The notes under the pieces are model-generated. The model searched no databases. It was not told the DNA's origin and worked only from the letters and a program-made list of their open reading frames with translations. From Sphaerotilus natans (lineage in GTDB: Bacteria; Pseudomonadota; Gammaproteobacteria; Burkholderiales; Burkholderiaceae_C): a stretch of 64,000 nucleotides of DNA. Numbering within the stretch: position 1 is the first letter of the stretch; the number at the start of each line of letters is the position of its first letter. The stretch is from positions 124,001 to 188,000 of the forward strand of contig NZ_FTMZ01000006.1 in assembly GCF_900156335.1 (NCBI RefSeq), written 5' to 3'. A program made the position numbers and the translations under genes. Below are positions 28,494 to 41,357 of the stretch, one piece after another.

Positions 28494-30416
28494 TCAGCTT
28501 CCGATCACGCCGCCGTCGTCCTTGCGGATCACCACGGTGGCCGAGCGCGGCCGGCCGGCGCCGTCGGGCCAGCGCGAGAGCTTCATCGGGTCGGCCGGAT
28601 CGCTGCGCTCGCTGGGCGATTCGCCCGGGTGCTGGATGTTGACGAACATCGTGCGCAGGTCGGGTGTCATCACCACACCGGTCACCTCGCAGCCGGCCGG
28701 GCCGAGCAGGAAGCGGCGGATCTCGCCCTGGGTGGGGTCGCAGGCCAGCATCTGGTTGTTGGGCAGGTTGGCATAGTCGCCCTTGCCCAGCGTCGAGGTC
28801 GACACGTCGGTCTGGATCCACATCGTGCCGCGCGGGTCGATCCACAGGCCGTCGGGGCTGCCGAAGGTGTCGCCGCGGATGTTGCCCCGGGCGTCGGCAC
28901 GCGCCAGCGTGGCGTCGCCTGCCAGCACGAAGTGGTTCCAGGCGAAGCGGCGCGCGTCGAGATCGCCGTCTTCCTTCCAGCGGATGATGTGTCCCATCGT
29001 GTTGTTGGCGCGCGGGTTGGCCGCGTCCACCGCCGGCTGGTTGTTGCCGCCGCGGCTGGAGTTGTTGGTCAGCGTGCAGTAGACCTCCTTGCTCACCGGG
29101 TCGACGGCAGTCCATTCCGGGCGGTCCATCTTCGTCGCGCCGAGCCGGTCGCTGGCCTGGCGTGCCTTGATCAGCACCTCGCCCTGGTCGGCGAAGCCCT
29201 GAGCCGCGGTGAGCGGACCCTGGCCATGCACCAGCGGCAGCCATTCGCCGCGGCCGTCGGCATCGAAGCGGGCCACGAACAGCGTGCCGTGGTCGAGCAG
29301 CTCGCGGTTGGCGGCTGCGCCGCCCGGCTTCATCGCGTCGCGGCTGACGAACTTGTAGAGGTACTCGAAGCGCGCATCCTCGCCCATGTAGACGACGGCG
29401 CGGCCGTCGGCGGTCAGCGCGAGCGCTGCGCCTTCGTGTGCGGCACGGCCCAGCGCGGTGCGCTTGATCGGCGTGGATGTCGGGTCGGCCGGATCGATCT
29501 CGACCACCCAGCCGAAGCGGTTGAACTCGTTCGGATGCCGGCTGGCGTCGAAGCGCTCCTCATGCTCGTGCCAGCGGTAGGCGGCGCCATTGCCTTTCTT
29601 CAGGCCCCAGCGCTTCTGGTGCGCGTCGGGCTGCTCGGGGCCCTCGAAGTAGTTGACGAAGTTCTCCTCGCAGGTCAGGTAGGTGCCCCACGGGGTGGCG
29701 CCGTTGCCGCAGTTGTTGAGCGTGCCCAGCACGGTGCGTCCGGCCGGGTCGGCGGCGGTGCGCATCAGCGCATGGCCGGCGGCCGGACCGGTCAGCGCCA
29801 TCGGGGTGGCCGCGGTGATGCGGCGTGCGTACCGCGACGGCGACACCACCGACCAGGCCGCGCCCTGACGCTGCACCTCGACCACCGACACGCCGTGCGC
29901 GGCGATCGACTTGGCGACCTTCTCGGCCGACCAGGTCTTCATGCCGTCGGCGTGCAGCAGCCCATCGTCGACATACTCGTGGTTCATCGCCAGCAGGCCG
30001 CGTGCCGAGCCGTCGGCGCCGCTGCCGAGCGGGAAATAGTGGATGCCGTCGTGGTGCATGCCGGCCTGCAGCGCCTGCTCGGCCGCGGTGTTGCTGGCGT
30101 CCAGGCGGAAGGCGGGCTGGCCGGCGGTCGCGCCGACCGGATCGCCCCAGCGGTACAGCACCGAGGCGGTGTAGCCCGCAGGCACCACTACCTGGTCGAC
30201 CGCGCGCATCGGCACCGAGGCGAAGCCGATGCCGCGGCCGGCCGATGCCGCGCCCAGACCCAGGCTGGCGCAGCCCCCCAGACCGCCGAGCAGGCCGGCG
30301 GCCACGCCGCCCAGGCCGCCGCGCAGCAGCAGGCGGCGGGTCGGGCTGGACATCTCGTGAATGCTGGGGTTGGTGCTGCGGTTGGAGTCTTCCATCCGCG
30401 AAAAGTCCTTGGCCAT
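28494..30416 (-). CDS. phoX: PhoX-family alkaline phosphatase
   Basis: A 640-residue secreted phosphatase of the PhoX/DUF839 family, Ca/Fe-dependent enzymes that release phosphate from organic esters. A twin-arginine (Tat) signal is present at about 27-50 (SPTRRLLLRGGLGGVAAG). Family motifs include LLAMNHEYVDD, LTCEENFVNYFEG and the late SPDGLWIDPRGTMWIQTD. ATG 30416 (MAKDFSRMED) has GAGGA seven bases upstream and is preferred over the in-frame start 57 bp earlier. A Pho box lies 63 bp upstream, indicating PhoB control under phosphate starvation. Confidence 0.94.
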   Translation of the reverse strand: MAKDFSRMEDSNRSTNPSIHEMSSPTRRLLLRGGLGGVAAGLLGGLGGCASLGLGAASAGRGIGFASVPMRAVDQVVVPAGYTASVLYRWGDPVGATAGQPAFRLDASNTAAEQALQAGMHHDGIHYFPLGSGADGSARGLLAMNHEYVDDGLLHADGMKTWSAEKVAKSIAAHGVSVVEVQRQGAAWSVVSPSRYARRITAATPMALTGPAAGHALMRTAADPAGRTVLGTLNNCGNGATPWGTYLTCEENFVNYFEGPEQPDAHQKRWGLKKGNGAAYRWHEHEERFDASRHPNEFNRFGWVVEIDPADPTSTPIKRTALGRAAHEGAALALTADGRAVVYMGEDARFEYLYKFVSRDAMKPGGAAANRELLDHGTLFVARFDADGRGEWLPLVHGQGPLTAAQGFADQGEVLIKARQASDRLGATKMDRPEWTAVDPVSKEVYCTLTNNSSRGGNNQPAVDAANPRANNTMGHIIRWKEDGDLDARRFAWNHFVLAGDATLARADARGNIRGDTFGSPDGLWIDPRGTMWIQTDVSTSTLGKGDYANLPNNQMLACDPTQGEIRRFLLGPAGCEVTGVVMTPDLRTMFVNIQHPGESPSERSDPADPMKLSRWPDGAGRPRSATVVIRKDDGGVIGS

Positions 30417-30478
30417 CGTGTCCTCGCAGTCAGCGTCGCTGGGCGACAGAGTGATGCGGCACATCGTGAACACGGGTC

Positions 30479-30573: not shown

Positions 30574-30999
30574 ATGAAGTTTCATGTCCGATTTCACTAT
30601 CATCGCTGGATGATCTTCTGGCGTCGTCACAGCTTCCGTCTCGTCAGCGCGGCCATCGCGCTGCTGATGATGGTCGCGCTGGCGCCGACGCTGTCGCGCC
30701 TGCTGGCCGCCGCCGATCCGGTGCGCGCGGCGATGCTGGCCGAGATCTGCTCGGCCACGATGCCGGCATCCTCGCGCACCGATGCCGGCGCGATCGGCAT
30801 GACGGACGCTGCCGGCGGCAACCACTGCCCGGCCTGCCTGAGCCCGGCCCTGGGCGCCTTGCTCCCCGAGCCGGACCGCCGCGCCGACTACCGCCTGCTC
30901 GAGCCCCTGCCTGTGCCGGTGCTGCGCATCGACTTCGTGCCGGATGCGGCGGCACATCACCCTCCTCTGCCCGCCCGGGCCCCGCCTGCGCTCGTCTGA
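30574..30999 (+). CDS. DUF2946-like small membrane/periplasmic protein
   Basis: About 141 residues. One N-terminal hydrophobic segment (FRLVSAAIALLMMVALAPTLS) is followed by a periplasmic tail with EICSAT and the family-type cysteine motif HCPACL, then a Pro/Ala-rich end. DUF2946 proteins are short, usually sit beside TonB receptors and copper proteins, and the CxxC-type motif may bind metal. ATG 30574 was chosen; ATG 30610 is equally possible because neither has a good ribosome-binding site. It precedes a TonB receptor gene by 219 bp and opens the copper-handling island. Confidence 0.7.
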   Translation: MKFHVRFHYHRWMIFWRRHSFRLVSAAIALLMMVALAPTLSRLLAAADPVRAAMLAEICSATMPASSRTDAGAIGMTDAAGGNHCPACLSPALGALLPEPDRRADYRLLEPLPVPVLRIDFVPDAAAHHPPLPARAPPALV

Positions 31000-31218
31000 G
31001 CGCGAACTGATCCGACGCATTCACGCCAGCGCGCACCATCGAGCGTGCCGCGCCATGGCCGCAGCACGCCCGCGGCGGCGGCTGCACATCCGTCGATCGT
31101 TCTCCATCCCGCCTGAATCCTGCTCTGGCCGCACCTGCACGGTGTAGCCCGGCTTGCGCTCGTCCGGCCTTCGTTCCGGTCGCGACGGGCTGCCGCTTTT
31201 TCTTGCGAATTTCCGTTC

Positions 31219-33309
31219 ATGCCTGCCATCACATTCACCATCTCGCCGGTGCCGTTCCAGAAGAAAACGCTGCCGTGGCTGTGCGCGCTGATGCTGCTGC
31301 CGCCAGTGGCTGCAGCGCAGGCGCAGGACCCCGCCGCGGCCACGGCCGAGGCGGCCACGCCGCGCTTCGACATCGGCCGCATCGACGTGCGCTCGGCACG
31401 CCGCCCTGCGCTGTCGGCCCGGCAGCTGCTGACCTCGGTCGACACGCTGCACCGCGACGTGATCGAGCCCCAGCCGGTGCAGACCACCTGGGAGCTGTTC
31501 AGCCTGGTGCCCGGGGCACTGCTGACCCCCTTCCAGCAGGGCACCACATCCGGCAAGGTCTCGCTGCGTGGCTTCAACGGCGAAGGCGAGGTCAACGCGG
31601 TCAAGCTGCTGATCGATGGGGTACCGGCCAACAGCCACAACGGCAACATGCCCTACATCGACAGCGTCTTTCCGCTTGAGCTGGAGTCGGTCGAGGTGGT
31701 GCGAGGCACCAGCGATGCCCGTCACGGCCTGCATGCGATCGCCGGCAGCATCGACCTGCGCACCCGCCAGGGCGGCCAGGGCAGCACGGTTCGACTGGGG
31801 GGGGGCTCGTTCGGACAGCGCAGCGTGGAGCTGGCGCATGCCGGTGCCCTGTCGGCTGACGGTGTCAGCCTGAATCTCTTTGCAGGTCGCAAGACCTCGG
31901 ACGGCTGGCGAGACCATGCCGCATCGACGCGCCAGGCGCTGTCGCTTCGCCTCGGCCATGCCGGCGACGGCTGGACCCGCAGCCTGAGCCTGCGCTACTT
32001 CGAGCATGAGGCCGACGAGCCGGGCTATCTCGTGCGCAGCGTGGCGCAGAGCGCGCCGTCGAGTTCTCCCGCCTATGTCGCCACGGACGGCGGCCGTCGC
32101 CACACCGTGCAGGCGGCGGTGCAGCTCGAGGGGGCGCTCTCGCCCGAGCTCAGCTCGAGCAGCCGCTTCCATGTCAACCGCTTCTCGGATGATCGCTGGG
32201 TGCGCTTCTCGGCCTCGGTCTCCCAGCAGGAGCGCCTGACCAGCGAGACCCAGGTGGGCGCCGCCACCACGCTGAGCTGGCGTCCACGGATGCTGGCGAG
32301 CCGTGCCGGTCTGCATGATCTGGCGCTGCAGGGCGGCATCGACATCGAGTCGCAGGACAACATCAGCCAGCGCTACGCCACCGTCGAGCGGGTGCGCGGC
32401 ACCCAGACGCGCGATCAGGCCTACACCCTGCATGTCGCTGGCGTGCATGCCCAGGCGCTGGTGCAGCCCACGCCCGCGCTGCGGCTGGTGCCGGGCTGGC
32501 GACTGGACCGGGTGGCTGGCCATTTCACCAATCGCCTGACTGGTGTCGAGTCACCGGTCAACGACTACGGCACCATCAGTCAGCCCAAGATGAGCCTGCT
32601 CTGGCAGGTGCAGCCGCAGCTTGCTTTGCATGCCAACTGGGGGCGTACCTTCCAGATCGGCACCGAGGCGGCCGCCTACAAGATCCCGCCGCGCCAGGCT
32701 GACCTGAAGCCCTCGATCAACGAGGGCTGGGAGGCGGGCCTGCGCTTCACCCCGGACGAGGCGACCACGCTGCGCCTTGCGGTGTGGCAGCAGACCGCCA
32801 CCGACGAGGTGCGCCGGCGCCTGAACGATCCGAGCGGCGATTCCGACAACATCGGCGCCACCCGCCGCCGTGGCGCCGACCTGCAGCTGCGCCTGCTGCC
32901 CGCCGCGACGCTGGAGCTGTGGAGCGCGCTGACGCTGCAGAAGGCGATCATCGTCACCCCCGACCCGTCGGCGCCGGCCACCCAGGGCAAGGAGATCGAC
33001 CATGTGCCGCGCCGCATGGTGCAGGCTGGCGTGAACTGGATGCCGAACGAGGTCTGGCGCCTGTCGGCCGAGCTGCAGTCGCAGGGCGACTACTTCCTGG
33101 AGCGCACCAACAGCACCGGCCGCTTCGGTGGCTTCACCGTGCTGAACCTGGGCACGAGCTGGCAGTTCTCGCCGCGGCTGCGGCTGGAAGCCTGGGTGCG
33201 CAACGCCACCGACCGCCGCACCGAATATGTCTGGCATGACGGCACGCAGTCGCTGCATTCGCCGGGCGCACCACGCAGCGTGTCGTTCGCGCTGCGGAGC
33301 GATCTGTGA
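31219..33309 (+). CDS. TonB-dependent outer-membrane receptor, probable copper/metal uptake
   Basis: A 696-residue receptor with a signal peptide (cleavage near AAAQAQDP). The plug domain (about 60-180) contains VSLRGFNGEGEVNAVKLLIDGVPAN and VEVVRGTSDARHGLHAIAGSIDL, and a 22-stranded-type barrel follows (conserved FGGFTVLNLGTSWQF and NATDRRTEYVWH near the end). It moves a substrate across the outer membrane using TonB energy. The downstream PepSY, MbnP, MbnH and PCu(A)C genes suggest copper or a copper chelate. Iron-siderophore transport is the main alternative. Its stop overlaps the GTG start of the next gene. Confidence 0.9.
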   Translation: MPAITFTISPVPFQKKTLPWLCALMLLPPVAAAQAQDPAAATAEAATPRFDIGRIDVRSARRPALSARQLLTSVDTLHRDVIEPQPVQTTWELFSLVPGALLTPFQQGTTSGKVSLRGFNGEGEVNAVKLLIDGVPANSHNGNMPYIDSVFPLELESVEVVRGTSDARHGLHAIAGSIDLRTRQGGQGSTVRLGGGSFGQRSVELAHAGALSADGVSLNLFAGRKTSDGWRDHAASTRQALSLRLGHAGDGWTRSLSLRYFEHEADEPGYLVRSVAQSAPSSSPAYVATDGGRRHTVQAAVQLEGALSPELSSSSRFHVNRFSDDRWVRFSASVSQQERLTSETQVGAATTLSWRPRMLASRAGLHDLALQGGIDIESQDNISQRYATVERVRGTQTRDQAYTLHVAGVHAQALVQPTPALRLVPGWRLDRVAGHFTNRLTGVESPVNDYGTISQPKMSLLWQVQPQLALHANWGRTFQIGTEAAAYKIPPRQADLKPSINEGWEAGLRFTPDEATTLRLAVWQQTATDEVRRRLNDPSGDSDNIGATRRRGADLQLRLLPAATLELWSALTLQKAIIVTPDPSAPATQGKEIDHVPRRMVQAGVNWMPNEVWRLSAELQSQGDYFLERTNSTGRFGGFTVLNLGTSWQFSPRLRLEAWVRNATDRRTEYVWHDGTQSLHSPGAPRSVSFALRSDL

Positions 33310-34472
33310 GCGCGGTCTCGCCACGCGCGCGCCGCGTGTGGCTGCAGATCCACAAGCTGCTGGGTCTGGCGCTGGGGCTGTGGTTCCTGCTGATGGGCGT
33401 GACCGGCAGCCTGCTGGTCTATTACCGCGGCCTGGATGCCCTGCTCGATGCCCGGCTGCGCGAGCAGCCCGGCGTGAGCGCGCCCGCGAAGATCGCCGAG
33501 GTGCACCGCACGCTGGTCGCGGCCCATCCGCAGCGCGGCACCGGCTGGCGCATCGAGGTGCCGTCTCGGCCAGGCGAGCCGGTCACCGCCCGCTTTCTCA
33601 AGCCGGTCGAGACGCAGGGCGCCTACTTTGCGCCGCTGCTGGCCACCACCGACCCGAGTGGCCGCACGCTGCTCGCCAACCGCTTCTGGGGCCAGACCCC
33701 GGGCACCTGGATCTACGACCTGCATTTCTCGCTGCTCGGCGGCGAGCTGGGCGTGAAGGTGGTGGGCTGGGGCGGCGTGGCGCTGGCGGTCTCGCTGATC
33801 AGCGGTCTGGTGATCTGGTGGCCGGCCCGCGGGCGTTGGCGCCAGGCACTGCGGCTGCGCCGGGGCGTGTCCACGGTGCGGCGGGTCTACGACCTGCACA
33901 CCGTCTTCGGCGCGCTTGGTGCAGTGCTGCTGCTGATCCTGGCCCTGACCGGCTCGGCTCTGGCGCTGCCGGACTGGGTCAAGCCGATGATCGCCAGCGT
34001 CTCGCCGCTGACGCCGATGCCCCGACCCGCCGTGCCGCCCCCCACGGAGACGGCGGGTCCGCGACTGGATGCCGACGCCGTCATCGCGCGGGCGGTGCAG
34101 GCCTTCCCTGGTGCCCAGGTGCTCTGGATCGACACGCCGGCCACCGACGGCGGGCTTTACCGCATCCGGCTGCGCCAGCCCGGCGAGCCCGGAGACCGTT
34201 TTCCCGACACCCTCGTCTGGATCGAGGCCAGCCGCGGCGAGATCGTGGCCCGCCGCGATCCGCGCCATTTCAGCGCTGGCGACACCGTCTGGCAGTGGAT
34301 GCATCCGCTGCACAGCGGCGAGGGCTTCGGCCCGGTCGGCCGCTTGCTCGTCTGCCTGTGCGGCGTGCTGCCGGTGCTGCTCGCCGTGACCGGTCTGTGG
34401 CGCTGGCTGGACAAGCGCCGGGCGCGCCGCCGAACGGCGGCCCGTCAGATTCTTCTCCACCCCGTTTCTTGA
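33306..34472 (+). CDS. PepSY-associated transmembrane protein
   Basis: A 388-residue inner-membrane protein with four helices in the PepSY_TM arrangement: HKLLGLALGLWFLLMGVTGS near the start, VVGWGGVALAVSLISGLVIW, DLHTVFGALGAVLLLILALT, and a last helix after HPLHSGEGFGPVGR. Conserved membrane histidines (HK, DLH, HPLHS) resemble those of reductases that release iron or copper after TonB-dependent import. GTG 33306 lies inside the stop of the receptor gene (GTGA), so the two are translationally coupled. It is probably the metal-reduction partner of that receptor. Confidence 0.88.
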   Translation: MSAVSPRARRVWLQIHKLLGLALGLWFLLMGVTGSLLVYYRGLDALLDARLREQPGVSAPAKIAEVHRTLVAAHPQRGTGWRIEVPSRPGEPVTARFLKPVETQGAYFAPLLATTDPSGRTLLANRFWGQTPGTWIYDLHFSLLGGELGVKVVGWGGVALAVSLISGLVIWWPARGRWRQALRLRRGVSTVRRVYDLHTVFGALGAVLLLILALTGSALALPDWVKPMIASVSPLTPMPRPAVPPPTETAGPRLDADAVIARAVQAFPGAQVLWIDTPATDGGLYRIRLRQPGEPGDRFPDTLVWIEASRGEIVARRDPRHFSAGDTVWQWMHPLHSGEGFGPVGRLLVCLCGVLPVLLAVTGLWRWLDKRRARRRTAARQILLHPVS

Positions 34473-34484
34473 AAGACCTTTTCC

Positions 34485-35519
34485 ATGACACCGTTCCATC
34501 GCTCCGCCCCGACCCTGCTGAAGCTGTCTCCTCTGGCCCTTGCCGCATTGCTCGGCGCCTGCGGCGGTGGCAGTGACGACACGGGCAGCACCACGGCTCC
34601 TGCTGCGACCACCCAGTCGGTCGCGATCGACTTCGCCGCCACCGTCGGCTCCACCGTGCTGAACATTGGCGACTGCGCCAGCACCACCGTCAGCGGCGTG
34701 GCCACCCGCAATGGCGTCGCGGTCGATGCCCGCCTGACCGACCTGCGCTTCTATGTCTCGAACCTGAAGCTGCTCAAGGCCGACGGCACCGCGGTGGCGG
34801 TCACGCTCGACGAAAGCATCTGGCAGGCCAAGGCCGGCGACGACACCATCGCGCTGATCGACTTCGAGAACGGCACCTGCACCAACAACAGCGGCGGCAC
34901 GGGCGGCACCAACACCCGCATCACCGGCAGCGTGCCGGCGGGCAGCTATGTCGGCGCGGTCTTCACGCTGGGCGTGCCTTCGTCGTGGAACCACAGCAAC
35001 CCGGCGCTGGCCACCACCCCGAAGCCGATCGACAGCAGCGTGCCCGGCATGGCCTGGTCCTGGCAGGCCGGCCGCAAGTTCACCAAGATCGAGCTGAGCC
35101 CCGTCAACGCCACCACGCCTGACACCTACACCGGCGGCGTGCAGATCATCAATGCCGATGGCACCCAGGCCACCACCACCACGGCCGGCGTGACGACCGC
35201 GACCGCCAACACCAGCGTCTTCCCGTATCACCTCGGCTCCACCGGCTGCGTCGCCGATGCGGCCGCCACCGGCACCGGCGGCTATACCTGCACCAGCCCG
35301 AACCAGTTCGATGTGCGAGTGGCAGCCTTCAACCCGACCAGCCAGCGCCTGACCGTCGACCTGCAGGCCCTGTTCGCGGGCAACAACGTGACGCAGAACA
35401 CCACTGGCACCGCGGGCGGATGCATGTCCTCGGCCAGCGATCCGCAGTGCACCGCGATGTTCACCATGCTGGACGGCGTGAAGTCGGGCGGCACGGTCTT
35501 CCGCGCGATCGCGAAATGA
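34485..35519 (+). CDS. MbnP-like copper-binding lipoprotein
   Basis: A 344-residue lipoprotein (lipobox LLGAC, Cys26). It matches the MbnP family (AZL_007920/MXAN_0976 type) through LTDLRFYVSNLKLL, VFTLGVPSSWNHSNPA, MAWSWQAGRKFTKIEL, FPYHLGSTGC and the C-terminal pair CMSSASDPQC. MbnP proteins bind copper after their partner MbnH oxidises a tryptophan to kynurenine. Several conserved Trp are visible here, but I cannot say which would be modified. It is coupled to the MbnH-like gene by an ATGA overlap. No methanobactin precursor or biosynthetic gene is seen in the window. Confidence 0.88.
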   Translation: MTPFHRSAPTLLKLSPLALAALLGACGGGSDDTGSTTAPAATTQSVAIDFAATVGSTVLNIGDCASTTVSGVATRNGVAVDARLTDLRFYVSNLKLLKADGTAVAVTLDESIWQAKAGDDTIALIDFENGTCTNNSGGTGGTNTRITGSVPAGSYVGAVFTLGVPSSWNHSNPALATTPKPIDSSVPGMAWSWQAGRKFTKIELSPVNATTPDTYTGGVQIINADGTQATTTTAGVTTATANTSVFPYHLGSTGCVADAAATGTGGYTCTSPNQFDVRVAAFNPTSQRLTVDLQALFAGNNVTQNTTGTAGGCMSSASDPQCTAMFTMLDGVKSGGTVFRAIAK

Positions 35520-36709
35520 TCGCCGCAGGCCGCCGTCTCCTTGCGGCCTGCGCCGCCCCGCTTGCACTGGCCGCAGCCCTGGCGACAGGGTTGCTGGGCG
35601 GCTGCTGCGGCGGCGGCACGCAGGCGACCGACACCGGACTGAGCACCGGATCCTGGACCTGGCGGCTGCCTGCCGGCTTTCCGGTGCCGGTGGTGCCCGC
35701 CGACAACCCGATGAGCGAGGCCAAGGTCGAACTCGGACGCCATCTCTTTCATGACAGGCGCCTGTCCGGCAATGGCACGCAGGCCTGCGCGAGCTGCCAT
35801 CTGCAGTCGCTGGCCTTCACCGACGGCCGGGCCACTTCGCTGGGCTCGACCGGCGAAGCCCATCCGCGCAACGCCCAGCCGCTGGCCAATGTCGCCTACA
35901 GCCCGCTGCTGACCTGGGCGAACTTCTCGCTGACCTCGCTGGAGCAGCAGATGCTGGCGCCGCTGTTCGGCGACAACCCGGTCGAGATGGGCGTGACCGA
36001 CCGCAACCAGGCCGAGGTGCTGGCGCGTCTGCGCCAGGATCCCGACTACCGCAGCCGCTTCGCCCAGGTGTTTCCCGGCCAGGCCGAGCCGATCCAGTGG
36101 GACAGCGTCATCAAGGCCATCGCAGCCTTCCAGCGCTCGATCATCTCGGGCAACAGCCGCTTCGACCGGGCCCAGCGCGGCGAGCTGCTGCTCAGCGCGG
36201 CCGAGACCCGCGGCATGAACCTGTTCAACGGCGAGAAGGCGGAGTGCTTCCACTGCCACGGCAGCTTCAACTTCAACGATCAGGTCAATCACCTCGGGCT
36301 GCGTCTGGTCGACACGCCTTTCCACAACACCGGTCTCTACAACATCGACGGCCGGGGTGGATTTCCGGCACCCAACCGCGGCCTCTTCGAGCTCAGCGGC
36401 AAGGCCGAGGACATGGGCCGGTTCCGCGCGCAGACGCTGCGCAATGTCGCGGTGACCGCACCCTACATGCATGACGGCTCGATCGCGACGCTCGAGGAGG
36501 TGCTCGACTTCTACGCCGCCGGCGGCCGGGTGATCGCCAGCGGCCCGCACGCGGGCGACGGCCGTGCCAACCCCTACCGCAGCGATCTGGTAGGCGCCAT
36601 CGCGCTGACCGCGCAGGACAAGGCCGACCTGGTGGCCTTCCTGCGCACGCTGACCGACGAGAACCTGCTGACGGACCCGGCCTATGCCGATCCGTTTGCC
36701 TCACGATGA
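35516..36709 (+). CDS. MbnH-like di-haem peroxidase-family enzyme
   Basis: A 397-residue protein of the di-haem cytochrome c peroxidase/MauG superfamily. It has a lipoprotein-type leader (TGLLGGCCGGG) and two haem sites, C91-ASCH and C244-FHCH. Axial or active-site context is visible in GVTDRNQAEVLARL and VTAPYMHDGSIATLEEVLDFY. MbnH-type members activate oxygen or peroxide to form kynurenine in their MbnP partner. The adjacent, overlapping MbnP-like gene supports that specific assignment over a generic peroxidase. The stop overlaps the next start (ATGA at 36706). Confidence 0.9.
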   Translation: MIAAGRRLLAACAAPLALAAALATGLLGGCCGGGTQATDTGLSTGSWTWRLPAGFPVPVVPADNPMSEAKVELGRHLFHDRRLSGNGTQACASCHLQSLAFTDGRATSLGSTGEAHPRNAQPLANVAYSPLLTWANFSLTSLEQQMLAPLFGDNPVEMGVTDRNQAEVLARLRQDPDYRSRFAQVFPGQAEPIQWDSVIKAIAAFQRSIISGNSRFDRAQRGELLLSAAETRGMNLFNGEKAECFHCHGSFNFNDQVNHLGLRLVDTPFHNTGLYNIDGRGGFPAPNRGLFELSGKAEDMGRFRAQTLRNVAVTAPYMHDGSIATLEEVLDFYAAGGRVIASGPHAGDGRANPYRSDLVGAIALTAQDKADLVAFLRTLTDENLLTDPAYADPFASR

Positions 36710-37989
36710 GAACGACGATGCCCCGAAGCCCGATGCGGACCAGCTGGCCACGGCCGGCATGGCTGGCTGGCGCCCTGCTGCTGTCGCTGGCCGGTGCGCA
36801 GGCACACGAGCGCGAGTCCGACGAGGCGCTGGAGGCGCCCGGATGGAGCGTGCGTGCGGCCGCGGCCCTGTCGGCCATGGCCGCCCGCGAGGCCTGGCCC
36901 GTGGCCCGCCGCTCCGGCGTGCTTGGCAGTGGCATGACGCTCGACGAGCAGCGTGGCCTGCGCCTCGAGCATGCGACGGTCGGTGCGGCGCTGCGGCTGG
37001 ATCCGACCGACATGACGCGGCTGCAGGCCAGCGTCGACATCGGCCGCCATGGCGATGGCACGACCCATGTGGAGACCGCCCGGCTCGACGGGCAGCGCGA
37101 GCTGGCCTCCGGTGCCCGCATCGGCCTGCGCGCCGGGCGCATGACTGTGCCGCTGGGCAGCATGATCGACACGGCGGGTCACCTGGACCGCTTCGCGCAG
37201 ATGCCGCTGGTGCGCCAGGCGGTGTCGGATGGTGACTGGATCGACGATGGCGTGGTGCTGCACTGGCAGGGCGATGTGCATGGCCCGGACGATGCGACGG
37301 TGCTCGAGCGGATCGAGGTCGGCGGCTGGCGGGCCCAGGCCCTGCCCGGCTCGGCCGAGAGCGGCATTGCGCCCGGACTGCAGCTTCGGCTGCGCCGGGG
37401 CGACTGGCGCCTGGAGGCCGGTGCGATCCATCTGCAGCCGCGCAACCGCGGTGCCCATGCGGCCAGCACCCGCAGCGGCCACACCCACGCCGCCCCCGAC
37501 TGCAGCCGCAGCCTGATCGGCGTGACCTGCTTCGATGGCCGCAGCACGGTGGCATCGGTCAGCCTGCGCTGGCAGCCGGACGCCAGCCCGCTGGGGCTGA
37601 CGCTGGCCACGATGGCGCAGCGCGAGCGCGGCCAGCTTGCCTCCGCCAGCGGCACGGCCGACTACCGTGGCCTCGTCACCGGAGGCTGGATCGAGGCCGA
37701 CTGGCAGGTCCGCCCGGACTGGACGCTTGCGCTGCGCGCCGAGCGGCTGGCCAGCGACCACCGCCTGATCGGGCCTGGTGCGACCGGCGTGGCGGCCGAT
37801 GCCGCGCTGACGCCGAACCAGCCAGCCTGGCGGCTGGCCGTGTCGGCCGGCTGGACACCGGCTCCAGGCTGGCAACTGCTGGCCGAGACCGGCACCGAAC
37901 GCGCCGAGCCGGCGGCCGGTCGTCGTCCGGTCTGGGCGGGGCTGCGGCTGATCTGGCAAGGCCGGCACACCGCCGAGCTTCCTTTCTGA
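36706..37989 (+). CDS. Outer-membrane beta-barrel protein linked to the MbnP/MbnH pair
   Basis: A 427-residue protein with a long signal peptide (cleavage near AGAQAHERES). Alternating amphipathic strands throughout end in a terminal Phe (HTAELPF), typical of an outer-membrane barrel. Porin-like stretches include GLRAGRMTVPLGSMIDTAGH and LVTGGWIEADWQVRPDWTL. A His-rich loop (GAHAASTRSGHTHAAPDC) could touch metal. It overlaps the MbnH-like gene stop, so it belongs to the same translational unit. Function unknown; a porin or docking site for the lipoproteins is possible. Confidence 0.78.
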   Translation: MRTTMPRSPMRTSWPRPAWLAGALLLSLAGAQAHERESDEALEAPGWSVRAAAALSAMAAREAWPVARRSGVLGSGMTLDEQRGLRLEHATVGAALRLDPTDMTRLQASVDIGRHGDGTTHVETARLDGQRELASGARIGLRAGRMTVPLGSMIDTAGHLDRFAQMPLVRQAVSDGDWIDDGVVLHWQGDVHGPDDATVLERIEVGGWRAQALPGSAESGIAPGLQLRLRRGDWRLEAGAIHLQPRNRGAHAASTRSGHTHAAPDCSRSLIGVTCFDGRSTVASVSLRWQPDASPLGLTLATMAQRERGQLASASGTADYRGLVTGGWIEADWQVRPDWTLALRAERLASDHRLIGPGATGVAADAALTPNQPAWRLAVSAGWTPAPGWQLLAETGTERAEPAAGRRPVWAGLRLIWQGRHTAELPF

Positions 37990-38241
37990 AGTTGCATCCG
38001 ACAGTTCATGGAGACCGAGATGGCCCCTCTTTTTGTCCTGAAGCGTGCGCTGCGGCGCCAGGATGAGCACACGTGCTGTGCACCCGGACCGCTGCCGCCG
38101 ACCTTCGCGGGCGTGGTCATGATCTCCGGGAAAGACCCGCACGGCCTTGCGGTCACTGATTCACTCACCTTCGCACCCCTTCCCCATGGAGGACAGACCG
38201 ATCTGTCCCATACTTTTCAGCAACAACCTGAGGAAAGACGA

Positions 38242-38730
38242 ATGTCCCTGAAGCACTCTCTTCGCGCCCTCGTGGCCTGCACCGCGCTGTTCACGGCCAC
38301 CGGCGCCGCACTCGCCCAGGTCACCGTCAAGGATCCCTGGGTCCGCGCCACCGTTGCCCAGCAGAAGGCCACCGGCGCCTTCATGCAGATCACCAGCACC
38401 GAACCGGTGCGGCTGGTCGAGGCGAAATCCGCTGCTGCGAAGATCGTCGAGATCCATGAGATGCGCATGGAGGGTGACCGGATGATGATGAAGGCGATCG
38501 ACGCGCTGGACATCGTCCCGGGCCGGGCCCTGGAGCTCAAGCCGGGCAGCTATCACGTCATGCTGATCGACGTGGTCAAGCCGGTGAATGCCGGCGACAA
38601 GGTGCCGCTGACGCTGGTGATCGAGGGCCGCGACGGCAAGCGCAGCGCAGTGGAGGTGAGCGCCGAGGCCCGGGCGATGAACGCGGCCCGGCCGGCTGCA
38701 GCCGCCCCCGAGCACAAGCATCAGCACTGA
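38242..38730 (+). CDS. Periplasmic copper chaperone PCu(A)C
   Basis: A 162-residue protein with a signal peptide (cleavage near GAALAQVTVKD) and the PCu(A)C cupredoxin-like fold. The Cu(I) motif of His and Met residues is EIHEMRMEGDRMMMKAID, and KPGSYHVMLIDV supplies the second His/Met pair. The C-terminal tail EHKHQH adds possible copper ligands. PCu(A)C proteins deliver copper to the CuA site of cytochrome oxidase. The ATG at 38242 has a GAGGAAAG ribosome-binding site; the in-frame stretch upstream lacks signal-peptide character. Confidence 0.93.
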   Translation: MSLKHSLRALVACTALFTATGAALAQVTVKDPWVRATVAQQKATGAFMQITSTEPVRLVEAKSAAAKIVEIHEMRMEGDRMMMKAIDALDIVPGRALELKPGSYHVMLIDVVKPVNAGDKVPLTLVIEGRDGKRSAVEVSAEARAMNAARPAAAAPEHKHQH

Positions 38731-38763
38731 AGTCGCTGACTGCGCCGGACGACCGACCTCCAG

Positions 38764-39183
38764 ATGCACTGGCGAATCCACCGACGCCTGATCAGCAGCA
38801 TCGCCATCCTGGCGGTGCTGCTGAACGCGCTGGTGCCCTCGCTGTCGCAGGCCTTCGCGGCAAGCCACCGCTCCAGCCAGGACCGGGCGGGCGGCTGGGT
38901 CGAAATCTGCGCGTCCAATGGCGCCGTCTGGATTCTGCAGGCTCCGGACGGCCGAGTCCTTGAACAGACATCCACTCGGCCGGACGATGTTCCTGGGCCG
39001 CTGCACGAAGCCTGCGCCTACTGCCTGACGCATGCCGGGTCCTTCGGCCTGCTGCCGGTGGCTGGCCTGCCCGGTGTGTCCGCTCAAGCGGTGGGCGCGG
39101 CGCCGTTCTTCTTTTTCTCGACCTTCTCTGACGACGAGCCGGGCTGGATCCGGCCCGCTCCGCGCGCTCCTCCGTGCCGTTGA
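38764..39183 (+). CDS. DUF2946-like small membrane/periplasmic protein
   Basis: A 139-residue protein with an N-terminal signal anchor (RLISSIAILAVLLNALVPSLS), the segment VEICASNGAVWIL and the cysteine motif HEACAYCLTHAGSFGL, all typical of DUF2946. It lies 33 bp after the PCu(A)C gene and is a diverged second copy of the protein at 30574, so the copper island is bracketed by two such proteins. Metal binding by the CxxC pair is plausible but not proven. Confidence 0.8.
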   Translation: MHWRIHRRLISSIAILAVLLNALVPSLSQAFAASHRSSQDRAGGWVEICASNGAVWILQAPDGRVLEQTSTRPDDVPGPLHEACAYCLTHAGSFGLLPVAGLPGVSAQAVGAAPFFFFSTFSDDEPGWIRPAPRAPPCR

Positions 39184-39341
39184 ACTGAGCATCACCCGCA
39201 CGCCGTGGCGATCTGCCCGGCGCTGTGGTCCCGATGTCTTGTTCCCTGATCCCGATGCCCTCGCGACCTGTCTTCCGGCTCCGCTCCGGCAGACCGGTCC
39301 GGGCCTTCTCGATTCACGGTCCGTTCTCCGGGAGTAGCGCC

Positions 39342-39653
39342 ATGCCGCGCATCCGTCTCTTCATCGCCGCCCATCTGGCGGCCGTCCTGTCTCTCTACGC
39401 GCTGGCCGTGCACATCGGCGACGGCTGGGCCAGTCCCCCGATGCCGGCCCTGGCCGGGTCGTCAGCCGTCGTGGCTCGCCAGCCGGACCGCAGCCCGGAT
39501 CCTTCATTCTCGTCTGCGCTGCTGGCGGCACCTGACCCCGCGGACACCCTTCGCACGGCCGACCATGACCTGGTGCGCCGATCAGCCCTTCAGGATCTGC
39601 AGTCCCCCTGGGACCGCGATCAGCACGCCAACGCCCTCATCTCCGGAAAGTGA
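39342..39653 (+). CDS. Hypothetical exported protein
   Basis: A 103-residue protein with an N-terminal hydrophobic segment (RIRLFIAAHLAAVLSLYALAV) and a polar tail rich in Asp, Pro and Ser. No domain is recognised. ATG 39342 has GGGAG upstream and gives a clean signal-anchor start. Its stop overlaps a GTG start of the Crp-like regulator, so the two are probably co-expressed. It may be an unassigned part of the copper island. Confidence 0.55.
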   Translation: MPRIRLFIAAHLAAVLSLYALAVHIGDGWASPPMPALAGSSAVVARQPDRSPDPSFSSALLAAPDPADTLRTADHDLVRRSALQDLQSPWDRDQHANALISGK

Positions 39654-40276
39654 CGATGCACACCCACACCCCTACCCGAACTGCTGAGGCCCCGCTGTCG
39701 TGGTGTGGCACGGACCGCGATCTGTACAGGCGAGGCGAACAGATCATTCGGCCCGGCCGGATGAGCATGCCGATGGTGGTGGTCTCCGGCGCGATGAGGC
39801 TGGACCTGCCTGGCGAGGACGACAGTGCCATCACGCTGGCCCTGCCCGGCGATCTGCTGGGTGTCGAGGTGCTGTTGGGTCAGCTGCCTCGCAGCCGGGG
39901 CGTGGCCTTGGTGGCCACCGAGGTGGCGCTGCTCGGCCCCGTGCCTCAGGACCAGTGGCTTGCGCTGCTGGGACGGCAGCTGCTGTCCGCGCGGCAGCGC
40001 CAGATGCACCTGGCACGACTGCGGCACGGCGCCGCTGCAGACCGTGTCGAGACCCTGCTGGGTCTGCTCGAGGGGGTGCAGCTGCCCCGGCTCACCGACA
40101 TCGCGGCCCTGACCGACCTGGCGCCCGAGACGGTGTCACGGCACCTGTCCGGGCGCCGTCGCGCCTTGCAGGACCTGCCGAGCGGACAGGTCCCGGGCAG
40201 AGTCGCGGTCAGTCCGCCGTCTGCAGCGTGCCGCGGCGCATCTGGTCGCGCTCCAGCGACTCGAACAGCGCCTTGA
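39650..40276 (+). CDS. Crp/Fnr-family transcription regulator
   Basis: About 208 residues. An N-terminal cyclic-nucleotide-binding-like barrel ([38 protein letters not shown]) is joined by a long helix to a winged helix-turn-helix ([20 protein letters not shown]). No Fnr-type N-terminal cysteines are present. The start is GTG 39650, overlapping the previous stop, or ATG 39656. The last 68 bp overlap the convergent HPPD gene, and the tail after the HTH (about 30 residues) is Ala/Arg/Pro-rich and unlike the family. It may control the copper island; the ligand is unknown. Confidence 0.8.
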
Positions 40277-41357
40277 AGTTGCCCTCGCCGAAGCCCTCGT
40301 CGCGCTTGCGCTGGATGAACTCGAAGAAGACCGGCCCGAGCAGCGGCTGGCTGAAGATCTGCAGCAGCAGGCGCGGCGTGCCGCCGGCGGTGTAGCCGTC
40401 GAGCAGGATGCCGCGCGTCTGCAGCGCGTCCACCGGCTCGCCGTGGCCGGGCAAGCGCTCGGCGAGCATCTCGTAGTAGACCGCGTTGGGTGCGCTCATC
40501 AGCGGCACGCCGGCCATCTGCAGCGCGTCCACCGTCGCGATCAGGTCGTCGCAGAGCAGCGCCACATGCTGGATGCCCTCGCCGTTGAACTGCATCAGGA
40601 ACTCCTCGATCTGGCCGCCGCCCTGGCGCGCCTCCTCGTTGAGCGGGATGCGGATCAGGCCGTCGGGCGCGGTCATCGCCTTCGAGGTCAGGCCGGTGTA
40701 CTCGCCCTGGATGTCGAAGTAGCGGATCTCGCGGAAGTTGAACAGGTGCTCGTAGAAATGCGCCCAGTAGGCCATGCGGCCGCGGTAGACGTTGTGCGTG
40801 AGGTGGTCGATCAGGCGCAGGCCGTGGCCGACCGGGCGGCGCTTCGCGGCATCCTCGAATTCGGGCAGGAACTCGAAGTCGATGTCGTAGATGGACTTGC
40901 CGTCCTCGAAGCGGTCGATCAGGTAGAGCGGCGCGCCGCCGATGCCCTTGATGGCCGGCAGGCGCAGCTCCATCGGGCCGGTCGGGATCTCCACCGGCTG
41001 TGCGCCCAGCTCCAGCGCCCGGGCATAGGCGCGGTGTGCGTCCTTCACGCGGAAGGCCAGGCCGCAGGCGCTGGGGCCGTGCTCGGCGGCGAAGTAGGTC
41101 GCCAGGCTCCTGGGCTCGCGGTTGACGATGAAGTTGATCTCGCCCTGGCGGTAGAGCACCACGTCCTTGGAGCGGTGGCGGGCGACGAGCGAGAAGCCCA
41201 TTCGCTCGAACAGCGGCTCGAGCACGCCGGCGGTCGGCGCGGCGAACTCGACGAACTCGAAGCCGCACAGGCCCATCGGGTTGTCGAACAGGTCGGTACG
41301 GGGGGAGGACAGGGGCGTAGTAACGGAAACGGGAGCGGAAACGGTCGGGTCAGCCAT
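40209..41357 (-). CDS. hppD: 4-hydroxyphenylpyruvate dioxygenase
   Basis: A 382-residue Fe(II) dioxygenase that turns 4-hydroxyphenylpyruvate into homogentisate in tyrosine breakdown. The two vicinal-oxygen-chelate halves are clear. The iron ligands are His in [12 protein letters not shown], His in [11 protein letters not shown] and Glu in [20 protein letters not shown], the last being the HPPD C-terminal signature. ATG 41357 has GAAGGAG upstream. It stands alone, convergent with and overlapping the Crp-like gene, and has no visible link to the flanking copper or uronate genes. The 279 bp upstream (41358-41636) hold no gene I can support. Confidence 0.95.

Follow-up and report, generated by a model that had tools for sequence, protein, structure and literature searches.

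We analysed a 64,000-nucleotide window of Sphaerotilus natans DNA (positions 124,001 to 188,000 of contig NZ_FTMZ01000006.1, assembly GCF_900156335.1; coordinates below are those of this window), which carries an island of copper-related genes at 30574–40276. The core of the island is one tight run of five plus-strand genes: a TonB-dependent receptor of 696 residues (31219–33309), a PepSY_TM membrane protein (33306–34472), the lipoprotein MbnP (34485–35519), the di-haem enzyme MbnH (35516–36709) and an outer-membrane barrel of no named family (36706–37989). The genes are joined by 4-bp overlaps (GTGA at 33306, ATGA at 35516 and at 36706) and by a single gap of 12 nt (34473–34484) between PepSY_TM and MbnP. 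A DUF2946 open reading frame (ORF) stands ahead of the run (30574–30999, plus strand). We consider the island best read as a copper-starvation (acquisition) operon under CruR attenuation, and on the sequence evidence this reading is probable. As far as searched, what is new here is the combined run and, more so, the family of barrels that carries the His/Cys stretch. An earlier interpretation of the same DNA, made from its letters and called here the sequence-only reading, had given gene positions, family names and junctions that our family searches and junction check confirmed; the PCu(A)C gene, the two DUF2946 ORFs and the Crp-like regulator that it placed after or beside the run are also present where it put them.

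Both DUF2946 ORFs of the island score above the PF11162 cut-off of 23.7 bits, the first with 33.9 bits and the second (38764–39183, plus strand) with 65.9 bits. They are the only two above it in the 4.63-Mb genome, 8 kb apart; one loose search of the genome gave seven matches, five of them below the cut-off, and the two of these five that were examined (L085, L088) do not show the CxxC/RAPP motif. In the first ORF, CPAC (30826–30837) is followed by 46 residues, RAPP (30976–30987), ALV and the stop codon; in the second, the order is CAYC, 46 residues, RAPP, CR and the stop codon. RAPP is thereby two or three residues away from the stop in both. CruR has been described as a leader peptide: when copper is absent, stalling of the ribosome at RAPP lets transcription of the operon proceed, whereas copper on the CxxC motif relieves the stall and Rho terminates transcription (PMC9426467). 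In the same source, ∼45 residues, give or take one or two, separate CxxC from the C-terminal RAPP, and long gaps after CruR are described, with 162 nt in Bordetella. The gap between the first leader and the receptor gene is 219 nt; it fits these long gaps and counts for CruR control. Over the latter half of leader 1 and the gap after it, C is more frequent than G, which lends weak support to Rho termination. With PF11162 above cut-off, the CxxC/RAPP spacing and a place at the head of a copper-related operon followed by a long gap, the two ORFs are, by their signature, CruR-type copper-sensing leader peptides and not working parts. The sequence-only reading had missed this; a role for them as working proteins of the uptake chain was rejected, since they carry the leader signature.

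CruR-type ORFs are frequent around related MbnH genes. As the nearest-relative set, we took the best 80 of 337 genome contig stretches encoding an MbnH relative, ranked by MbnH similarity. Fifty of these loci contain 81 CruR-type ORFs, compared to 4–5 ORFs with the motif reversed; 78 of the 81 are on the MbnH strand, and the spacing is 41–47 residues in 80 of them. A CruR-type ORF is located upstream of MbnP in 47 of the 80 loci, within 600 nt in 22, at 600–3000 nt in another 22 and farther away in three; at least 1 kb of upstream DNA was covered for 73 loci. Attenuation has been demonstrated for Bordetella CruR, and the motif, spacing and position suggest that it operates here by analogy. At low copper, the ribosome would stall at the RAPP of leader 1, Rho would be excluded, and the run from receptor to barrel would be transcribed. 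Once copper binds CxxC while the leader is being made, the stall would end, and Rho would halt transcription ahead of the receptor gene.

The cluster might instead handle copper excess, by sequestration or detoxification, with its leaders acting as positive switches. The genome contains, at another place, a bufferin-type locus, which suggests that copper excess is dealt with too. CutF, one related DUF2946-type leader situated before a multicopper oxidase, is described as working opposite to CruR (PMC9973294). However, the CxxC–RAPP spacing and the long gap are those of the negative type, CruR, and a TonB receptor together with PepSY speaks for import; we regard a role in copper excess as unlikely.

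The MbnP/MbnH pair lies at the centre of the run. MbnP matches PF20243 and PDB entry 7l6g (E 3.2e-30), and MbnH matches 6e1c, 'Di-heme enzyme', over 352 residues (E 6.9e-142); we take these entries to be methanotroph MbnP and MbnH. The TIGR04052 and TIGR04039 searches, which the sequence-only reading had proposed as a check, gave 199 bits for MbnP (cut-off 140) and 511 bits for MbnH (cut-off 363). MbnH contains two CxxCH motifs, at positions 91 and 244, and a lipobox recognized by eye. Residues 191–193 of MbnP form a WSW motif (35055–35063), the first Trp of which is the expected kynurenine. Across the window's MbnP and those of 31 of the 80 loci, 32 sequences in all, W191, W193, H170, H249, M314 and four Cys do not vary. 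According to a 2021 PNAS paper, MbnH reportedly converts the first Trp of the MbnP WxW motif to kynurenine, and the pair is said to be widespread. In the copper-starvation operon, MbnH would oxidise Trp191 of MbnP to kynurenine, completing a Cu(I) site. MbnP is present in all 80 nearest-relative loci. To these we added broader samples, drawn evenly from the order, the class and the phylum, which gave 36 MbnP loci besides the window's; MbnH is present in 33 of them, and in L178 it lies ∼1.7 kb off. Such co-occurrence indicates that the pairing is more than chance. Two tandem MbnH genes stand between MbnP and the barrel in L004–L006, L013, L014, L016, L017, L023, L025, L033 and L076 (Zoogloea and others).

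Methanobactin production was rejected for this strain, as the sequence-only reading had supposed: MbnB was not found in the whole genome, the best match reaching 34.6 bits against a cut-off of 325. The genome has one DUF692 match above cut-off, which was rejected as MbnB because it sits in the bufferin-type locus (L093, contig 29: 207041–210898). In that locus DUF692 was identified by search; the small Cys-containing exported precursor and the BufC-like and DoxX-like proteins were named by eye, and we presume the locus to be of bufferin type. The pair without methanobactin, as put by the sequence-only reading, had already been reported: a 2013 paper describes MbnP/MbnH in bacteria that do not produce methanobactin (PMC3621798), and a 2022 paper describes MbnPH-like genes in copper operons headed by CruR (PMC9426467). 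Assistance in methanobactin maturation or in copper release has been speculated as the role of the pair (PMC9601215). In two further loci, L097 and L158, MbnP/MbnH has an upstream CruR-type leader and, just downstream of MbnH, a DUF692/MbnB-like gene recognized by eye; these are possibly methanobactin operons under CruR control.

The last gene of the run encodes the barrel. It has no Pfam or NCBIfam match at E 0.001, only sub-threshold Pfam matches; its profile has no match in the PDB at E 10, and a Pfam scan of 52 barrel members gave a best E of 0.0015 and no agreed family. In the nearest-relative set, the barrel was found in 69 of 80 loci by single-sequence search (>25 bits) and in 75 by profile. 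It is located downstream of MbnH in 73, of which 71 were assigned by a distance window and two (L026, L035) have open frames that begin earlier; in L018 and L081 the profile match lies elsewhere, and five loci have no match. We aligned the window's barrel with 51 of the 66 relatives scoring >60 bits. H34, H115, H259, H261, C266 and C275 are invariant in all 52 sequences, and the last four of them form a His-x-His-x4-Cys-x8-Cys stretch (37480–37530, plus strand). A loose His-x-His/Cys/Cys pattern occurs in 71 of the 75 profile matches, the exceptions being three contig-end fragments (L037, L039, L052) and L081. In L040 the loose pattern matches at another place, though the invariant columns are present. 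Taken alone the loose pattern is weak, with 117 matches among the 1,486 ORFs that are 300 residues or longer, barrels included. As an insertion in a barrel, the stretch may be an extracellular loop.

Homologous barrels also occur away from MbnP and MbnH. A barrel match was obtained in 50 of 150 genomes of the order, and a plasmid search with the barrel gave none at E 1e-8. After exclusion of the MbnP/MbnH-linked barrels (own genome, G133 and contig 342 of G021), 48 cousin loci were left. Different from the island, these have no MbnP or MbnH in the DNA examined, and none of the 48 cousins has the His/Cys stretch. G021 possesses one barrel of each kind. By these sequence features, the barrels found with MbnP/MbnH form a subfamily apart, marked by a His/Cys stretch of their own. 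Seven barrels were found in the broader MbnP sample; four have the full stretch, and three distant ones (L164, L175, L177) have His-x-His only, which counts against a simple rule. A second arrangement recurs in 26 of the 48 cousin loci (L100–L147), namely a CruR-like ORF, the barrel, a ZnuA-type binding protein and usually an ABC-3 permease.

The barrel would act alongside MbnP at the outer membrane. We suggest, tentatively and with more doubt than confidence, that it is MbnP's outer-membrane partner, a channel or platform specific for copper, at whose extracellular His-x-His/Cys-Cys loop the metal is captured and then exchanged with kynurenine-MbnP on the cell surface, and that it derives from a general metal barrel that elsewhere feeds ZnuA-type ABC importers and is often led by a CruR-like ORF. 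If this is true, the barrel is a TonB-independent route of metal entry that was hitherto undescribed.

The front half of the run consists of the receptor, with matches to PF00593 and PF07715 (plug and barrel), and PepSY_TM (PF03929, 183 bits). In B. pertussis, the order is cruR, crtA, a TonB copper importer, and crpH, a PepSY_TM protein and speculated copper reductase (PMC12914433, PMC13038864). H16, H140, H198 and H336 of the island's PepSY_TM protein align with the haem-ligand His residues of FoxB (7abw) and are invariant in six sequences, which makes the protein a CrpH-like candidate for a periplasmic Cu(II) reductase. The receptor would import a copper chelate, and PepSY_TM with haem would reduce Cu(II) to Cu(I). 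Eight of 200 genomes of the order, own genome included, have a receptor match with an E-value of at most 1e-60. We inspected ∼5 kb around each full-length orthologue in other genomes (L149–L155); five of the seven adjoin a PepSY_TM gene, weakly so in L149 (73 bits). L154 and L155 have CruR, receptor and PepSY in the island's order, with no MbnP within the ∼5 kb examined, and in a Delftia locus (L152) MbnP follows the receptor in place of PepSY_TM. Own-genome paralogue L156, on another contig, is 42% identical and has neither CruR nor PepSY within the 5 kb examined. The receptor was rejected as OprC, as TIGR01778 is absent among its 11 NCBIfam matches at E 0.001, provided that the library includes the model. 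Its 696 residues compare to 707–911 in published CrtA orthologues (PMC12914433).

Alternatively, the receptor and PepSY might take up iron xenosiderophores and be no more than neighbours of a copper unit. PepSY_TM proteins with established activity reduce ferrisiderophores (PMC13038864), and the best NCBIfam model of the receptor is a siderophore receptor, at 144 bits below its cut-off of 223.5. We think this improbable: a CruR-type leader heads the front half, MbnP begins only 12 nt after PepSY, and no Fur-like site stands out, the best in the upstream stretches tested scoring 10/19 compared to 13/19 elsewhere in the window.

Several findings weigh against the copper-starvation operon or its generality. 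The nine aligned receptors, among which CrtA was not included, share H233 as their only invariant His, and it lies outside the strand-8 region; the invariant and essential His of CrtA is H358 in strand 8 (PMC12914433). Identification of the receptor as CrtA was set aside, as the strand-8 comparison did not bear it out. No sigma-70-like promoter was detected in the region. CruR-like ORFs also stand at the head of zinc-type ABC loci, nickel or cobalt may be the metal of some members of the broader CutF-like family (PMC9973294), and a Zur-activated zinc-efflux operon of Caulobacter is headed by a DUF2946 gene (PMC4176598). Among the 36 broader MbnP loci, a same-strand CruR-type ORF was found in eight, a barrel in seven and a receptor above 60 bits in two, one of them strong (L094, the same locus as L008 of the nearest-relative set); the full set is thus not general. 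An MbnH tree, built by a quick method and with some long branches, has 114 rows, of which 112 are different; on it, presence of the barrel changes at least seven times and that of CruR at least 12 times. No coupling of the two is seen on this tree, with four independent pairs on starred branches and seven on all branches, and a CruR–barrel coupling was given up, as the independent pairs do not support it.

The zinc-related findings bear on whether the cluster serves another metal, such as zinc or nickel, or several metals. Besides the Caulobacter operon, the barrel cousins speak for this: a ZnuA-type protein accompanies 47 of the 48 and an ABC-3 permease 42 (one seed of each was verified by Pfam), and 26 lie directly behind a CruR-like ORF. 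Over all ORFs of the cousin set, which includes six MbnP loci, 42 are CruR-like and two have the reversed motif; the single cousin-locus CruR-like ORF tested reached 17.3 bits with DUF2946, below the cut-off of 23.7. Nevertheless, the MbnP/MbnH-locus barrel forms the predicted subfamily with its own stretch, and both MbnP and PCu(A)C are named as copper families, which leaves service to other metals very improbable.

The samples also show how common the parts are. In the 80 nearest-relative loci, single-sequence searches (>25 bits) detected PCu(A)C in 44, an ORF like leader 2 in 21, the receptor in six (strong in L008 and L021) and PepSY in none. MbnP was found in nine of 150 genomes of the order (E 1e-10), 13 of 369 of the class and 19 of 398 of the phylum (both E 1e-20; 16 of the 398 above the curated cut-off), own genome included in each. 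Of the eight broader MbnP loci from the window's order, six have CruR and two the barrel. None of the 80 nearest or 36 broader loci was seen to have the whole set in a single run, and the general copper-acquisition system envisaged by the sequence-only reading was not borne out; its full uptake chain holds as gene order and is overstated as a chain, for the chain is deduced from that order. The nearest approach is Delftia L008, with receptor, PCu(A)C, CruR, MbnP, MbnH, barrel and PCu(A)C; Delftia L021 has CruR, receptor, CruR, MbnP, MbnH and barrel. Clustering of all ORFs of the 80 loci was uninformative, owing to GC-rich shadow frames.

Compared to known systems, the island resembles B. pertussis cruR-crtA-crpH (PMC9426467, PMC12914433, PMC13038864) in its CxxC/RAPP leader, long gap, TonB receptor and PepSY_TM; it differs in adding MbnP, MbnH and the barrel to the run, and a second CruR-headed unit. 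With the MbnP/MbnH of methanobactin operons (PMC3621798) it shares the family, WxW motif, two haem sites and adjacency, whereas the barrel as third gene, the CruR leader in place of MbnI/MbnR and the lack of MbnB in the genome set it apart. MopE/SACCP and CorA/CorB likewise combine a copper-binding partner, a di-haem enzyme and kynurenine chemistry (PMC3912023, PMC3621798). The parts and most pairings are already known, so there is no novelty in the finding as originally titled. The combined run, the barrel family and its CruR-like/ZnuA cousins were absent from the open-access literature searched, by searches mostly not aimed at the barrel context. Outer-membrane copper entry in bacteria without methanobactin is poorly known, and the island bears on it by uniting MbnP/MbnH in a single run with a TonB receptor and a probable Cu(II) reductase, behind a predicted copper-sensing leader. 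The barrel with its conserved stretch is a testable third partner; it also occurs in culturable bacteria, among them Rubrivivax gelatinosus, whose loci L043 and L050 have CruR, MbnP, MbnH and the barrel.

Downstream of the run lies the PCu(A)C copper chaperone (38242–38730, plus strand; PF04314, 113 bits, searched from the second codon onward), with the motif H-x10-M-x21-H-x-M. As the sequence-only reading had it, the island is copper-related; residues for the Trp-to-kynurenine chemistry and for copper chaperoning are retained. PCu(A)C would hand copper to cuproenzymes, probably respiratory oxidases. It begins 252 nt after the barrel, and a terminator-like stem (38191–38208, plus strand) lies between them; PCu(A)C may therefore be a separate transcript. 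The stem is weak evidence, as four terminator-like sites were found in the region compared to 2.2 expected. A second PCu(A)C copy is on another contig.

The second leader is followed on the plus strand by a small membrane protein (39342–39653, alternative start GTG 39225) and the Crp-like regulator (39650–40276; PF00027, 23 bits, below the cut-off of 27.5), both of which it would control as leader 1 would control the run. With the start of the small ORF at 39342 the gap behind leader 2 is 158 nt, and with the GTG start it is 41 nt. ORFs related to the small protein were found, as weak matches, in three loci with CruR-type leaders (L022, L024, L061), and Crp-like homologues in 17 of the 80 loci. 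A frameshift at the 3′ end of the Crp-like gene was considered and rejected; the C-termini of its relatives vary too. This gene overlaps, tail to tail and by 68 nt (40209–40276), a minus-strand gene that by eye is 4-hydroxyphenylpyruvate dioxygenase-like (40209–41357). On the other flank, a large divergent gene (28494–30473, minus strand) is of PhoX type by eye.

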